Positions 39,955-47,497 of a DNA stretch of 64,000 nt are shown in pieces. The translations under genes and the position numbers were made by a program. This DNA is from Gammaproteobacteria bacterium (GTDB lineage: Bacteria > Pseudomonadota > Gammaproteobacteria > Steroidobacterales > Woeseiaceae), in the NCBI GenBank assembly GCA_029863705.1, contig JAOTUU010000002.1, positions 1 to 64,000 of the forward strand, given 5' to 3'. How positions within the stretch are numbered: the stretch's first letter is position 1; each line of letters starts with the position of its first letter. Under the pieces are notes generated by a model. It worked only from the letters and a program-made list of their open reading frames with translations, was not told the DNA's origin and ran no database searches.

Positions 39955-40347
39955 CTAGTGATGCTCTCGATGTAATTTTGCGTCATGCGTTCGGAAGTGA
40001 TCGCCGAACCAGCGCTCGAGGTCGGTGGAAAGCCGCGCTTCATCGTATTCGCCGTCGTCTTCAACCTCATCCATGATGTCGCGAAGTTCGTCGAGCAATG
40101 TCTCATGGTCTTGTTTGTGCTCGAGGAACTCAGGGTAGAGTGATGCACGCATCATTTTTTCTTCGAGCGCGAAGTGAGAAGCAATCTGAGCGAAGATTTC
40201 GCCGAGTGATTCGATGACTGCATCGCGGCCTGCGCCGGGTCGAGTGGAACCGTGCAGGCTGTTTATCAGTTCTATCAGCTCTCTGTGTTCGAAATCGACT
40301 TCGGCAACACCGACGCTGAATTCTTCTTTCCAGGTGATCAGGCTCAT
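39955..40347 (-). CDS. Bacteriohemerythrin
   Basis: VAEVDFEHRELIELINSLH, HFALEEKMM, HKQDHETLL, WFGDHFRTHD. Confidence 0.9.
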   Translation of the reverse strand: MSLITWKEEFSVGVAEVDFEHRELIELINSLHGSTRPGAGRDAVIESLGEIFAQIASHFALEEKMMRASLYPEFLEHKQDHETLLDELRDIMDEVEDDGEYDEARLSTDLERWFGDHFRTHDAKLHREHH

Positions 40348-40847
40348 CGAATACTGAAGCCCCCTTTCTCGGGTTTGAACGTGATTGTACGATAACGTCC
40401 GGCGGCGAAGGTAACGTCTTCTTCGTAAACGTAGTCCCATCCGTCGGTACGTGCCGTATACCGGATTCGTGTGTTAATGCGATGTTCGCCCGGTGGTAGA
40501 TCAAAGCGCTCATACACGGACGACAAGCCATCGCCCCACAGCCCGGATGGCAGTGCTTCAATGCGCAAGGCCGTATTGCCATCGACATCAAGTTCAAAAA
40601 TTAATGGCAGGCGCTGCCGCTCGCAAAGCACAGAACGTCGCATATTCGGCGCGAGTTCAGCGATTTGCTGCGGTGTCAGTTTTATACAAGGTTCGACGTG
40701 GTTGGTCGCGTGACTCAGAGAGACCTTCACGACGGCCATGTCAGGCGACGCGTAGTGGTAGCGGGGCCAAAAGGAAAGGTAACCGACCACGTACGCAAAT
40801 CCTGCGTACAGGGCGATCTGCAGAGCTGCTCGGGCGACGTTACGCAT
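40344..40847 (-). CDS. Hypothetical membrane-anchored protein
   Basis: N-terminal TM ALQIALYAGFAYVVGYLSFW; overlaps the cytochrome b fusion gene. Confidence 0.65.
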   Translation of the reverse strand: MRNVARAALQIALYAGFAYVVGYLSFWPRYHYASPDMAVVKVSLSHATNHVEPCIKLTPQQIAELAPNMRRSVLCERQRLPLIFELDVDGNTALRIEALPSGLWGDGLSSVYERFDLPPGEHRINTRIRYTARTDGWDYVYEEDVTFAAGRYRTITFKPEKGGFSIR

Positions 40848-42387
40848 TTCGCGAGCCTCGCTTCGGTGGTCGCGGCGGTAGCTTGCTCAGCGACGCGGCA
40901 AATTCCGCGAATTCCTGTTTGCGCCGCCGCGCGCTGCCTTGTGGCAGCCAGCTAAGACTCAGCCGCTCTCGTTGTACCCGTTTGCGCAAATAGGGATCGC
41001 GTTCACCGGCGACGCGTTGTTTTGTCCAGCTGTCGCCCAGGCGATAAAAGCAGTCGCCCTGGGCACAACCAGCGAGCATGACGCCGTCGGCCAAGCCGCG
41101 CGAAAGCGCGAAATCGATGAATGCCGGCGGCAGCATGGCGACGCAGGGCATGGAGATTACCTGCGCACCCATGTCACTGAGTGCCGCTGCGTTGGCGGTA
41201 TTGCAGGTGTACACCAACACTCGTGAACCGTCCCCGAATCGAGCGGAAGCTTCTAGCGTGCGTTCTCGCAATTCAGACATCGGCTGATCCGGTAACTCAA
41301 TGCCTGCCACGATGGCTGTCGCGCGTCGGAACGGCGTGGCGGTCGGGCATGCGCCGACACAAAGTCCACAACTCATGCAGTGACTTTCATTGACGACAGC
41401 TTCAGTGTCATACGCCGCGCCGTCACTGCGTGGCTCCATGGTGATAGCACTGAATGGGCAATCTTCAGCGCAGCGGGCGCAGCCGTTGCAGTTGTCTAGA
41501 TTGACCACAGCCGGTGGCGTCGACTTTTTCGGTGGTATCCAGGGAAGCAGTGACAGGAATATCGAGCCACCAACCAGAATCAGCCACAGCTGGCCGCCCG
41601 GAATGAAATCGAGAATCGGATATGCGGCGAGGTAATACCAGTCGAGGTTAAGGGCTGCGGGAACGACGTCGAGGTCGGCGGGCCCCTGGCTGACGGCCGG
41701 GTAGACGAGGGAAAGGACGAGCAGGCTTATCGCAGTACCCAATGCAAGTGGTCGTGGTGGATTCACCCGAGCCCTGGCGTGTCGCTGGATATGCAGCCAC
41801 ATCAGAAACAGCATGAACAGCGGCGCGAAAATGTGCATGAACACCATAAGTGTGAAAAACCGACCACCAAGGGTTGTGCTGTTAAGAAAGTTGTTCGCGA
41901 TGGGCTCGCCAAAAAACGGCAGTGTGTCGAACCACTCGGTGGTCGCAATGGCAATGTACTGGGCCAGCTTGTCCCACACCAGCCAGTAGCCGGTGATACC
42001 GCACATGTACACGAACCAGATCAATGGCACGCCGGTTATCCAGGCGAAAAACCGCCTGCCGCGCAGCCGGTCCAATGAAAATTCACGGAGTATGTGCAGG
42101 AACATGACAATAACGAGCGCATCGGAAGCGTAACGGTGAAGGCTGCGCATGACGCCAGCCGCGTACCATTGGTCGTGCGTTATATATTCGACGGATGTGT
42201 ACGCGTCGGTGATGCCGGTATCAAAGAACAGGTACAGGTAGATGCCGGTAGCCGCGACTATCCAGAAGAAATACCAGCCCAACGCCCCCAGATTGGCGAG
42301 CGGGCTGTTGCGCTGCCCGAAGCTCCAGTCAAAGACCGTCTCGGCGCGCGCAAACAGTAGTCGAATAATGCGTTTCAGGAACGCCAT
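40840..42387 (-). CDS. Fusion: cytochrome b/b6-like domain + two [4Fe-4S] ferredoxin motifs + MvhD-like iron-sulfur domain
   Basis: SLHRYASDALVIVMFLH and MHIFAPLFMLFLMWLH heme-ligand pairs; CNGCARCAEDCP, CMSCGLCVGACP; LVYTCN...MPCVAML...GVMLAGCAQGDCFYRLGD. Confidence 0.85.
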   Translation of the reverse strand: MAFLKRIIRLLFARAETVFDWSFGQRNSPLANLGALGWYFFWIVAATGIYLYLFFDTGITDAYTSVEYITHDQWYAAGVMRSLHRYASDALVIVMFLHILREFSLDRLRGRRFFAWITGVPLIWFVYMCGITGYWLVWDKLAQYIAIATTEWFDTLPFFGEPIANNFLNSTTLGGRFFTLMVFMHIFAPLFMLFLMWLHIQRHARARVNPPRPLALGTAISLLVLSLVYPAVSQGPADLDVVPAALNLDWYYLAAYPILDFIPGGQLWLILVGGSIFLSLLPWIPPKKSTPPAVVNLDNCNGCARCAEDCPFSAITMEPRSDGAAYDTEAVVNESHCMSCGLCVGACPTATPFRRATAIVAGIELPDQPMSELRERTLEASARFGDGSRVLVYTCNTANAAALSDMGAQVISMPCVAMLPPAFIDFALSRGLADGVMLAGCAQGDCFYRLGDSWTKQRVAGERDPYLRKRVQRERLSLSWLPQGSARRRKQEFAEFAASLSKLPPRPPKRGSRNA

Positions 42388-42397
42388 CTAATGCCAG

Positions 42398-43138
42398 TCA
42401 TCGCGCGCGGCGCCACTCGGTAATGACAAATAACAGAATGGCACCGAGGCAGAGCGCGCCTACCAGTATCGTCATGAAAATGGAGTAGTCGAATTTGTAA
42501 CGGCCACTATTGGGATCATAGACCGTACAGAATAACTTAAAAGTGTCCACCCAGTGGTCGACAATGCCCGCGTCTCGTGGCGTGTCGAACACCAGCTCTT
42601 TCAGCGGTTCCACAAATGAAGGCGCGTCGAAGTCCTGGCCGTATATCTGCCGGTACACTTTGCCGTCTGCATCGACAATGGTTGTCTGTGACAAATGGTC
42701 AAAGCCTTTGGCCGTCGCGAAGAACTGAAACCCTACGTCCTTACTGATGGCCGCAACGGTCGGTTCGTCAGAACTCAGGAAGTGCCAGTTGGGCGTATCA
42801 ATGCCTTTTCCCGATGCATACATGCGCATTCGGTCCGGAGTATCCACCTGCCAGTCGAAACCGATGGAGATAATCGAGAACGCGTCCTCGCCAAGTGCTT
42901 CATGGGCGATGTCGGCGTGTTTTTCGATATTCGTGGTAATAACAGGGCACACGTGGTGGCAACTGGTGTAAATGAGACTGATGACGAGTGGCTTGCCGCG
43001 CAGCGACTGCAGGGAAAAAGTCTGACCTTTTACATCCCGAAACGTGTAGTCGCCGATCGTATTACCGAGCGCGCCCTGGCTGATGGCCAGGGCGGCTTCT
43101 CGGTCGTAGTCCTGCTGTGCTGCTATCGGCGCTGCCAC
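42398..43138 (-). CDS. SCO1/SenC copper chaperone
   Basis: YTSCHHVCPVI (CxxxCP), TIVDADGKVYRQIYGQDF; C-terminal TM helix. Confidence 0.92.
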   Translation of the reverse strand: MAAPIAAQQDYDREAALAISQGALGNTIGDYTFRDVKGQTFSLQSLRGKPLVISLIYTSCHHVCPVITTNIEKHADIAHEALGEDAFSIISIGFDWQVDTPDRMRMYASGKGIDTPNWHFLSSDEPTVAAISKDVGFQFFATAKGFDHLSQTTIVDADGKVYRQIYGQDFDAPSFVEPLKELVFDTPRDAGIVDHWVDTFKLFCTVYDPNSGRYKFDYSIFMTILVGALCLGAILLFVITEWRRAR

Positions 43139-43197: not shown

Positions 43198-44892
43198 CTA
43201 GCTTAATGGCCAGATCTCAGACAGGTACTTCCAGTTCACGAAGTAATACAAGACAAATGCTACAAAGAAGATTGAGACCAGGAATACCGTGCCTGGAATC
43301 TTCAACGACTCAGTACTGCCATAGTGACTTACTGCGGCAGACTCTGGTGGAACTTCGGGATACTCGGGCTTCTCATCCTCGGCGAGTTTCTTGCCGAAAA
43401 AGACTGAGCCAACTACAACCACGACATACATGAGGCCACCAATTGCCGCCATTATCGCGAATATGCCGTTAAGGCCCATCATCAAATAGGCCGCCGACGG
43501 ATAGTCGAACGGCAATATGGCATCCGCGAACGTCATATCCCAGTGTCGTCGTGACACACCGAGTGTTCCCGCACCCATCATGAATATTGAGATGCCTGCA
43601 ACACCGATACCGAATACATACGGCTGCCACCTCGCGACTCTCTTCATTACGAGTTCACGGCGGAAGATCAATGGTACGAGAAGGTACGTTATCGCCATGA
43701 ATGCGAGTGTCGTTCCCGCCACCACGGTGCCGTGGAAGTGACCCGGTACATACAAGGTGTTGTGCATGATCAGGTTGATCTGTTCGGTACCCATCACGAC
43801 GCCGGAAATACCGCCAATAAAGCCGAAGAACACGAGCGACATGAACATGCCGGAAAACGCAGGATTACCCCATGGCGCCTTGCGCAGCCACTCGAACATG
43901 CCCTTGGTGAGCCCGCGCCCACGCTGCGCCGCCTCGATCGCGCCAGGTACGCTCATGCCGTGAATCATGCTGCCAAGTACAGCCAGGTACATCGCATAAC
44001 TCGTGTTGAAAATCTTCCATTCCGAACTCAGTCCCGGCTCGACCAACAGGTGGTGAGCACTCGCGAGTTGCAGGAACAGGATGTACATGAGGAACGCCAT
44101 GCGGCTGATCTTCTCTGACAGTGGTTTGGCGCCAAACACCATCGCAGCTATCGCATACCAGACTGAAACATGTGCAGCGACGTTAATCTGTTGTGATGAA
44201 TGCCCCATCGCCCACCAGATGGTCTTGTAGACCAGCGGGTCAATATGGCTGACGAGGCCGACCGACCAGAGAAATGTCGGTATCAGAATGATGGCACCCG
44301 AGGCGATCGTGAACACCGCAATGATCGCTGCAGTTAATGCACCGAACGTAACCAGCGGAACTGACCCTTCATAGGTCTTATCCCGTTTCGCGATCACAAG
44401 AGTGCCGAAGAAGACACCGCAACCGATCAGCGCCCCGACCGCAAACAAGATGATGCCCAGATAGAAGCCAGGTTCCGCCATCATCGGCACATACGAGGTG
44501 AACATGACGCTCGACCCGCCTTGCAAGACCACGACATTCGTAATCAATGCACCAACAAGCATCATCCCGAACCCGGCCCAGGCCCATTTGGGACCGGCCA
44601 ATCTTGAGTTCAAGAGTATCGCCGAGGCGAAATACAAAACCGCCATTTCGAAGAAGATGCACCAAACCAGCAGTACGTCAAGGCCGTGGGCAGTCAGTGC
44701 CAGGTAAAACCAGTCTGCTGGAAGAAAATGAACGGCTGGCCAGCGAGTCAATGCGACCGACAGGCCAAACAGCCCACCGATCGCAAGAAACACGACAGCG
44801 GCGACGGCATTTGCCTTGATAAGTTTCTCAGCTGCCCGGTCAACTTTCAGACCGGTTGTCGGGCAGGTACGATAATCGAAAAGTTTGCTCAT
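43198..44892 (-). CDS. B-family heme-copper oxidase-like subunit I; candidate sNOR-type nitric oxide reductase catalytic subunit
   Basis: WWAMGHSSQQINVAAHVSVWY, ASAHHLLVEPGLSSEWK, HNTLYVPGHFHGTVVAG; sequence aligns by eye to ba3 subunit I. Confidence 0.85.
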   Translation of the reverse strand: MSKLFDYRTCPTTGLKVDRAAEKLIKANAVAAVVFLAIGGLFGLSVALTRWPAVHFLPADWFYLALTAHGLDVLLVWCIFFEMAVLYFASAILLNSRLAGPKWAWAGFGMMLVGALITNVVVLQGGSSVMFTSYVPMMAEPGFYLGIILFAVGALIGCGVFFGTLVIAKRDKTYEGSVPLVTFGALTAAIIAVFTIASGAIILIPTFLWSVGLVSHIDPLVYKTIWWAMGHSSQQINVAAHVSVWYAIAAMVFGAKPLSEKISRMAFLMYILFLQLASAHHLLVEPGLSSEWKIFNTSYAMYLAVLGSMIHGMSVPGAIEAAQRGRGLTKGMFEWLRKAPWGNPAFSGMFMSLVFFGFIGGISGVVMGTEQINLIMHNTLYVPGHFHGTVVAGTTLAFMAITYLLVPLIFRRELVMKRVARWQPYVFGIGVAGISIFMMGAGTLGVSRRHWDMTFADAILPFDYPSAAYLMMGLNGIFAIMAAIGGLMYVVVVVGSVFFGKKLAEDEKPEYPEVPPESAAVSHYGSTESLKIPGTVFLVSIFFVAFVLYYFVNWKYLSEIWPLS

Positions 44893-44904: not shown

Positions 44905-45438
44905 TTACTCGACAACGTAGATTTTACCTACCATCGTGTGGTGGCCGATTCCACAGAATTCGTTACAGACAACACCAAACTCACCCGTTTTATCGGGCTT
45001 GACCGTCACGACTATGTCGTACCCGGGGTGAACCTGAACATTGATATTGATGGGCTGTAACGAGAATCCGTGTTGCCAGTCCATTGAAGACATGTGCAAG
45101 CGGTAGCTCTGGTCTTTTTCCAGCTCCAGAATTGGCCACCATTGCCACAATCTTGCTATTAGATATACGTCACTGCCGGGTGGCGGATGAACGACCGGAA
45201 AACCAGCTTCCTCACCTACCTGGAATTCATCGATCATTTCCTGCGCATGTTCGGCAAATCGCTGCGGTTTGATCTGATAGGCCTCACTGGAGAGATTTTG
45301 CTCTCCAGCCCCATGCCAATAGATCATCATGAAGAACATGGTGAGGCCCCAAAGGAAGGCGACGACTATCCAGATCAGCTCGACCTTGGCGATAGGCTGA
45401 CGCCACCAGATGCGTTCACTCGGCGGTGAAATGGCCAT
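44905..45438 (-). CDS. Cytochrome c oxidase subunit II-like protein with CuA site
   Basis: N-terminal TM; CNEFCGIGHHTM CuA motif. Confidence 0.9.
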   Translation of the reverse strand: MAISPPSERIWWRQPIAKVELIWIVVAFLWGLTMFFMMIYWHGAGEQNLSSEAYQIKPQRFAEHAQEMIDEFQVGEEAGFPVVHPPPGSDVYLIARLWQWWPILELEKDQSYRLHMSSMDWQHGFSLQPININVQVHPGYDIVVTVKPDKTGEFGVVCNEFCGIGHHTMVGKIYVVE

Positions 45439-45450
45439 GATGTGGTCCCC

Positions 45451-45633
45451 TTAATCCGCTATCGGAATTTGGGTAATCTCGATGATCCCCCAAATGATAT
45501 AAAACACCGCTGGCATAGCGATGCCAAGAACCAGCAGCAAAAACGGGTTATCGAGCACCCGTTGCATCAATGGAATTTGCTCCTGGTCGGGATCCGGCGA
45601 TTGGTCTTCGCCGGTATTGTTATTCTCGGACAT
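45451..45633 (-). CDS. Small single-TM protein of the oxidase cluster
   Basis: MSENNNTGEDQSPDPDQEQIPLMQRVLDNPFLLLVLGIAMPAVFYIIWGIIEITQIPIAD; directly upstream of the CuA subunit. Confidence 0.65.
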   Translation of the reverse strand: MSENNNTGEDQSPDPDQEQIPLMQRVLDNPFLLLVLGIAMPAVFYIIWGIIEITQIPIAD

Positions 45634-46722: not shown

Positions 46723-47172
46723 CTAACGTTTCCGTTTGCGGGAAGCCTTTTTCTTCGTCTTACGTTTCGTCTTACGCTTGGCTACCTTCCTTTTAGCCTT
46801 TTTCTTCGTCTTACGCTTGGCTACTTTTTTCTTAGCCTTTTTCTTCGTCTTACGCTTCGTCTTACGCTTGGCTACTTTTTTCTTAGCCTTTTTCTTCGTC
46901 TTACGCTTCGTCTTACGCTTGGCTACTTTTTTCTTAGCCTTTTTCTTTGTCTTACGTTTCGTCTTACGCTTGGCTACTTTTTTCTTAGCCTTGCGTTTGG
47001 TGACTTTCTTTTTCGTCTTACGCTTGGCTACTTTTTTCTTAGCCTTGCGTTTGGTGACTTTCTTTTTCGCTGCGCGTTTCTTAGGTGCAGCTTTTTTCCT
47101 TGCTGTTACTTTCCGCTTCTTCGCGACTTTTCGCTTAGAAGCTTTTTTCCGTGACTTCTTCTTAGTAGCCAT
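46723..47172 (-). CDS. Histone-H1-like Lys/Arg-rich repeat protein
   Basis: MATKKKSRKKASKRKVAKKRKV...(KTKRKTKKKAKKKVAKR)n; internal tandem repeats. Confidence 0.85.
   Translation of the reverse strand: MATKKKSRKKASKRKVAKKRKVTARKKAAPKKRAAKKKVTKRKAKKKVAKRKTKKKVTKRKAKKKVAKRKTKRKTKKKAKKKVAKRKTKRKTKKKAKKKVAKRKTKRKTKKKAKKKVAKRKTKKKAKRKVAKRKTKRKTKKKASRKRKR
46760..46985 (-). repeat. Tandem repeat array (about 51-bp unit) within the histone-like gene
   Basis: Near-identical copies of cttcgtcttacgcttggctacttttttcttagcctttttcttcgtcttacg. Confidence 0.8.
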
Positions 47173-47497
47173 TGTGTTTCTCCGTGTCGGGTACCCGGCG
47201 TTGAGTATATACAACAAAACCCAAAAATCCAGCGACTTAGGTGACGCTGTTAACGTTTTTAGGAATTCGCGAAAAACACTGTGCGCGGCTGAGAAAAGAA
47301 CGATTCGCTACTTTACGAAAAAAAGTCGCGGGTGAATTCCAGTTACGCTTAATATTTTTGGCACAATTGCTTAGCGATTTTTTTCCGGGTGCATTCAAAA
47401 TAGTGTCGCGCCCAGAATCGGACGTACGTTATCGGATGCAGAAAAATTCGGGGCAAAAATTACGCTGACCTGGGTCTGTTTGCGTCGATGCGTCGCG

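Follow-up and report, generated by a model that had tools for sequence, protein, structure and literature searches.

eNOR is a recently recognised family of nitric oxide (NO) reductases and a potential source of N2O, and cytochrome c is assumed to supply its electrons in proteobacteria. The family is marked by a glutamine at the position of the cross-linked tyrosine in subunit I (PMC8756737), and the same type of heme-copper enzyme (HCO), named ba3-a1 by Degli Esposti, is reported to reduce NO (PMC6431628, PMC8879329). The corresponding marker residue of sNOR is asparagine (PMC8756737), and the norSY-senC gene order resembles that of the operon described here (PMC4940428, PMC3772326). In the window, by which we mean the whole 64,000-nucleotide stretch that was analysed, an eNOR-type operon includes a gene that fuses a cytochrome b core to two [4Fe-4S] motifs and an FlpD/MvhD domain. 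We found no description of this fusion in the literature searched, which did not include the main eNOR paper; its parts are known, and that literature contained nothing on their combination or its obligate tie to eNOR.

The operon and its heme-copper enzyme

The operon runs on the minus strand from 45633 down to 39955, with intergenic gaps of 10–59 bases or else short overlaps. It encodes, in order, a 60-aa protein with a single transmembrane (TM) helix, a CuA subunit II, a heme-copper subunit I, a SCO/SenC protein, the fusion, a 167-aa TM protein and a bacteriohemerythrin. Judged from its sequence, the 60-aa protein (45451..45633, minus strand) is a probable small subunit of eNOR; a small hydrophobic ORF precedes coxB in 62/62 loci under a permissive scan, and the C-terminal end is alike in the relatives inspected. 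Subunit II of eNOR (44905..45438, minus strand), a cupredoxin by Pfam, has an intact CuA motif (CNEFCGIGHHTM), with the CuA Cys, His and Met ligands complete in 62/62 relatives, and lies directly upstream of subunit I (43198..44892, minus strand). The best alignment of subunit I is to the Thermus ba3 oxidase, whose cross-link tyrosine (Tyr237, in GHPIVY) is replaced by glutamine (GHSSQQ, H231-SSQ-Q235). Gln235 occurred in 66/66 relatives, and the CuB and heme histidines H231, H280, H281, H385 and H387 were conserved among them.

By sequence, this HCO, which an earlier note on this DNA had placed in an "oxidase/NOR cluster", belongs to the eNOR type of NO reductases and is not an O2 oxidase. 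Identity as a B-family (ba3) O2 reductase was ruled out because the cross-linked Tyr is Gln in all relatives; sNOR, weighed for the norSY-senC-like order, was ruled out because the marker is Gln rather than Asn. Plasmid-borne relatives of subunit I in Thermus (46% identity, beside nirS) and Thermomicrobium, the closest non-proteobacterial eNOR relatives among those read, carry the same Gln. Since these eNOR loci lack the fusion gene, the fusion is dispensable for eNOR chemistry as such. As a separate observation, a second, divergent COX1-family protein is encoded in or beside two eNOR clusters (L201:7640-9499 and L204:3124-4512, both minus strand), with a weak match to Pfam COX1 and none to an NCBIfam model, and COX1-like genes of about 455–465 aa lie close by in four named loci (L077, L091, L099 and L134).

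The SCO/SenC copper chaperone (42398..43138, minus strand; Pfam) keeps both Cys of its CxxxC motif in 76/76 relatives. On the other side of the fusion, the 167-aa protein (40344..40847, minus strand) is conserved in 79 loci and consists of a single TM helix and a beta domain that AlphaFold predicts with confidence (pLDDT 95) and that carries the invariant Cys54 and Cys75. It had no match in Pfam or NCBIfam, and its model had no significant match among PDB folds (Foldseek). In one genome the fusion and the 167-aa protein form a single ORF (L206:4887-6932), which suggests that the two act together. The bacteriohemerythrin (39955..40347, minus strand; PF01814, E 2e-11) has 130 aa counted from the Met at 40347, the listed ORF beginning at 40440. 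Its ligand-type residues H52, H89, E93, H108, H112, H148 and D153 (numbered on the 161-aa ORF) were present in 73/74 to 75/75 relatives.

We surveyed the gene neighbours in 80 named loci, locating genes by tblastn; these loci are the best matches and hence a biased set, unlike the class survey described below. In all 61 of them with more than 4 kb of upstream sequence, coxB, coxA and SCO preceded the fusion in that order, and in 33 of these a cyoE-like gene separated coxA from SCO; the 167-aa protein and hemerythrin lay downstream of the fusion in nearly all loci. The order small TM protein, CuA subunit, subunit I, optional cyoE, SCO, fusion, TM/beta protein and hemerythrin held in every named relative with enough flank. 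A public Defluviimonas plasmid record shows an identical order, with the fusion annotated merely as a "cytochrome b N-terminal domain-containing protein". Genes for a Rieske protein or cytochrome c1 were absent from the identified operon genes of the window, and the genes conserved beside the fusion in relatives are different ones. No FNR/Dnr box (TTGAYNNNNRTCAA) was found upstream of the operon, and matches in the window were no more frequent than chance. Elsewhere in the window, 46723-47217 (minus strand) encodes a lysine-rich, histone H1-like repeat protein made from 27–51 bp tandem repeats; the opposite strand of this gene is also open (199-aa ORF, 46736-47335).

Domains and variants of the fusion protein

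The fusion gene (40840..42387, minus strand) is a single unbroken reading frame of 515 aa. A Pfam search gave three domains above their cut-offs, namely Cytochrome_B (residues 32-200, E 2e-20), the Fer4_7 dicluster (residues 299-350, E 8e-10) and FlpD (PF02662; residues 407-503, E 3e-14, 53 bits against a cut-off of 22.3). FlpD also exceeded its cut-off in the fusion proteins of all 34 gammaproteobacterial genomes that contain one. No NCBIfam family covers the whole protein; the top models (cytochrome b6, ExtP and HdrA2) scored far under their cut-offs, and HdrA2 aligned with residues 293-504 only (78 bits against 1100). Among solved structures, sequence comparison matched the first part to cytochrome b6 and the last part to MvhD (5odc_D). 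An AlphaFold model built on 78 sequences reached pLDDT 84 and pTM 0.82, and Foldseek matched it to bc1 cytochrome b across about 280–290 aligned columns.

We aligned 78 full-length relatives to follow the cofactor ligands. In the cytochrome b core (residues 1-288; 41524..42387, minus strand), the heme ligands H84, H98, H185 and H199 are invariant, as are G34, G48 and G133, and G119 is kept in 77. The ligand pattern, together with the Pfam and fold matches, predicts two bis-His hemes b in a four-helix bundle, and six membrane helices are predicted in this part. A putative Qo-like (PEWY-type) motif, DWYYL (residues 249-253; 41629..41643, minus strand), stands in a predicted p-side loop; D249 and W250 of this DWFY motif (249-252, at the place of PEWY) occur in 78/78 relatives. 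This conserved feature was absent from the earlier note. The core is followed by the two [4Fe-4S] motifs (CNGCARCAEDCP and CMSCGLCVGACP; residues 293-350; 41338..41511, minus strand), recognised by Pfam and by alignment of relatives, with all eight Cys in 78/78. The earlier reading of one 515-aa ORF with heme His pairs and two ferredoxin clusters was therefore borne out. The membrane topology of cytochrome b is established, and because of it the Fe-S/FlpD part would be cytoplasmic and residues 249-252 would lie on the p-side.

The FlpD/MvhD [2Fe-2S] domain (residues 390-503; 40879..41220, minus strand), identified by PF02662 and by alignment to MvhD 5odc_D, contains the motif GCAQGDCFY. C395, C415 and C446 are present in 78/78 relatives and C441 in 77. 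The domain is shortened at the N-terminal side, matching the profile only from position 27 to 122; of the CxxC that characterises MvhD, a single Cys (C395) is general in the fusion family, and the complete N-terminal CxxC and full-length domain were not found. With an FlpD score well above the Pfam cut-off, the profile search agrees with the MvhD-like C-terminal domain that had been claimed from motifs alone. Two further observations concern the family as a whole. The spacing of the helix-D heme His (H185 to H199) is 14 in one group and 15 in another. One genome has a tandem pair of fusion copies with cores 49% identical (L205:2368-5876, minus strand), and two adjacent copies are also listed for genomes G608, G633 and G684.

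Second copies of the cytochrome b core occurred in four genomes, where other modules can take the place of the Fe-S/FlpD tail. At L204, a gene joining cytochrome b to Fer2, FAD and NAD modules directly follows SCO and is itself followed by the Fe-S/FlpD fusion; the core at L203 is likewise joined to Fer2-FAD-NAD modules. At L201, directly after SCO, the core runs into a near-complete CysJ-like NADPH flavoprotein (TIGR01931, 548 bits); the two cores there are identical over 864 nt, an exact repeat for which misassembly is possible. In the fourth genome (G342) the cytochrome b part alone is readable, as the contig ends there. These NAD(P)H-module variants are rare, with two cases inside eNOR clusters (L204 and L201), and the heme His, like DWF of the Qo-like motif, are retained in all module variants. 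In the tree, the CysJ variant falls among the fusion sequences and the Fer2-FAD-NAD variants are placed apart from them, so modules were exchanged on this core at least twice.

Co-occurrence with eNOR and with other redox genes

We searched 369 gammaproteobacterial genomes for the fusion and for eNOR subunit I. Each was found in 34 genomes, 33 of which had both, leaving one discordant genome on either side (Fisher P 8e-45, with genomes that are not independent). In the eNOR-only genome (G264) the contig ends just behind the eNOR gene, and the fusion-only genome (G215) is 77% complete. The two genes were adjacent in 27 of the 33 shared genomes; in four they were split between contigs and the fusion lay close to the end of its contig, and in two genomes of one genus they were about 15 kb apart. 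In a phylum-wide sample, eNOR was present in 28/33 genomes with the fusion vs 0/20 without it. The fusion occurs in about 9% of the sampled gammaproteobacterial genomes and in many alphaproteobacteria too. The class and phylum surveys, with the 61/61 loci above, show that what had been noticed as proximity to oxidase genes is a near-obligate association, and that the fusion is a fixed part of the eNOR gene set in many proteobacteria.

Strong full-length matches to cytochrome cd1 (NirS-type) were found in 31/34 fusion genomes vs 4/34 controls, the controls being the first 34 listed fusion-negative genomes. No NirK was found above cut-off in the 34 fusion genomes, and an NnrS gene adjoins one eNOR cluster (L201). 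The cytochrome cd1 and NnrS context points only indirectly to reduction of NO to N2O as the putative reaction of the neighbouring HCO.

MvhD-type domains are known from electron transfer between hydrogenases and heterodisulfide reductases (Hdr), a link that for the fusion did not survive the genome comparison. A full-length NiFe hydrogenase large subunit was present in 13 of the 34 fusion genomes and absent from 21, an HdrA/QmoB relative was present in 14 and absent from 20, and 13 genomes had neither. The fusion was the sole FlpD protein in 21/34, and no hydrogenase or Hdr genes were seen adjoining it in the loci read. Genome content across the 34 genomes thus does not support a hydrogenase/Hdr link, which we rejected, and the FlpD domain of the fusion is therefore used outside its textbook setting. 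That the fusion moves electrons between hydrogenase and heterodisulfide reductase/HdrA, the classical MvhD role, would fit a FlpD domain that beats the Pfam cut-off and a source genome with a NiFe hydrogenase (G000:C202) and an aprA-qmoA-qmoB-qmoC-like cluster (L211, C240), each on another contig than the fusion; the distribution over genomes contradicts it, neither partner was seen beside the fusion in the loci read, and we give it almost no credence. Within that cluster, QmoC and aprA scored above NCBIfam cut-offs and an HdrA2/QmoB-type protein has a full FlpD domain.

Proposed electron routes and relation to known systems

The fusion probably connects intracellular reducing power with eNOR or the quinone pool. 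We propose, at a probability of roughly 0.55, that it is a dedicated electron-exchange subunit of proteobacterial eNOR, most likely carrying cytoplasmic reductant to heme b. The conserved cofactor ligands, the fixed eNOR operon, the 33 shared genomes, the Gln and CuA markers, the NO context and the hemerythrin in the operon all favour this role. A low-potential cytoplasmic donor, ferredoxin or a flavoprotein, would dock on the MvhD-like [2Fe-2S] domain, and the two [4Fe-4S] clusters would then relay electrons first to heme b on the n-side and next to heme b on the p-side. From there they could enter the quinone pool at the DWFY site or go straight to CuA in eNOR subunit II, and NO might in this way be removed by cytoplasmic reductant in addition to bc1 and cytochrome c. 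Oxidation of NAD(P)H is the normal activity of the CysJ- and BenC-type modules swapped onto this core, and by analogy a cytoplasmic carrier most likely donates electrons to the Fe-S/FlpD module, from which they move on to heme b. No always-present partner gene that could encode the cytoplasmic donor was found. The earlier suggestion that iron-sulfur carriers are coupled to the quinone or heme pool and feed the terminal reductase remains the best reading and is strengthened by the NAD(P)H-module variants; domains, ligands, operon and distribution are established from the sequences, and topology, direction, donor, acceptor and complex formation are what we infer.

The Qo-like motif hints at p-side quinol chemistry, which would be superfluous for a simple outward conduit. 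Quinol might accordingly be oxidised at a p-side Qo-like site with one electron going to CuA and NO, at very high potential, a step that we regard as unlikely. We view with equal reserve the companion step, in which the second electron would return across the membrane via the hemes b and the [4Fe-4S]/FlpD part to a cytoplasmic low-potential carrier. Conservation of DWFY at the PEWY position, a core of the bc-complex type and the presence of Fer4-FlpD parts in HdrA-type proteins too are consistent with such bifurcation, and in an operon without Rieske or c1 the role of acceptor at high potential could fall to the CuA subunit encoded nearby. The swapped-in CysJ and BenC-like modules, with their usual oxidation of NAD(P)H, and the lack of a conserved flavin site in the fusion argue against it. 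If it were true, NO reduction would pay for ferredoxin or NAD(P)H; the full version, a Rieske- and c1-free bc-type cytochrome b complexed with eNOR whose bifurcation of quinol lets NO reduction drive ferredoxin or NAD(P)+ reduction, seems a little less likely still.

The quinone-site features of the core would suit a cytoplasmic donor:quinone oxidoreductase without contact to eNOR, which would feed the quinol pool whenever the eNOR operon is on and leave eNOR to bc1 and cytochrome c. CuA in subunit II is the usual entry for cytochrome c, and a separate bc-type cytochrome b gene exists elsewhere in the source genome (L003); yet near-obligate pairing with one HCO family exceeds the needs of a general quinone reductase, and we consider this arrangement rather unlikely, at about one chance in five. 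The position of the fusion gene between those for SCO and the TM protein, and the two conserved Cys of the 167-aa protein that shares its frame at L206, could instead indicate an assembly or maturation factor that works alongside SCO, CyoE and the 167-aa protein and supplies the electrons needed when copper or heme is inserted into eNOR. This we judge improbable: two hemes b, two [4Fe-4S] clusters, FlpD and NAD(P)H-reductase swaps go beyond what copper chaperones are known to need, and the Thermus eNOR does without the fusion.

Returning to the electron-exchange subunit, a fixed cytoplasm-facing partner whose Fe-S, Fer2/FAD/NAD and CysJ-like modules can be swapped suggests that electrons reach eNOR by a second path. 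In addition, the fusion and its operon neighbours serve as a marker in sequence data by which these NO reductases can be told apart from ba3 oxidases, as which they are annotated.

The closest described systems each share some of these features. Described eNOR (the ba3-a1 subtype) has the same Gln-for-Tyr subunit I, CuA subunit II and SCO in the operon (PMC8756737, PMC6431628, PMC8879329), whereas the Thermus and Thermomicrobium plasmid loci lack the cytochrome b-Fe-S-FlpD gene, which goes unmentioned in the eNOR literature searched. Cytochrome b6 and bc1 cytochrome b resemble the fusion in their four-helix bis-heme core, where the His and Gly agree, and in having helices E-F and a motif of the PEWY kind; the fusion differs in having DWFY rather than PEWY, a cytoplasmic Fe-S/FlpD tail and an operon without Rieske or c1. 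The C-terminal Fer4-FlpD module of HdrA2 and QmoB has two [4Fe-4S] motifs and then FlpD in the same order, but the fusion lacks the FAD-binding HdrA domain, is joined to cytochrome b and has a shortened FlpD. MvhD, the delta subunit of the Mvh hydrogenase (5odc_D), has the same FlpD fold and GCxxGDCxY motif, while the fusion misses the N-terminal part of that domain and most of the CxxC, often in genomes without hydrogenase or Hdr. QmoABC, unlike the fusion, has three subunits with FAD, contains in QmoC an HdrC-NarI-type fusion and not a cytochrome b6, and serves APS reductase; like it, QmoABC connects a membrane cytochrome b and quinone with Fe-S chemistry of the FlpD/HdrA type.
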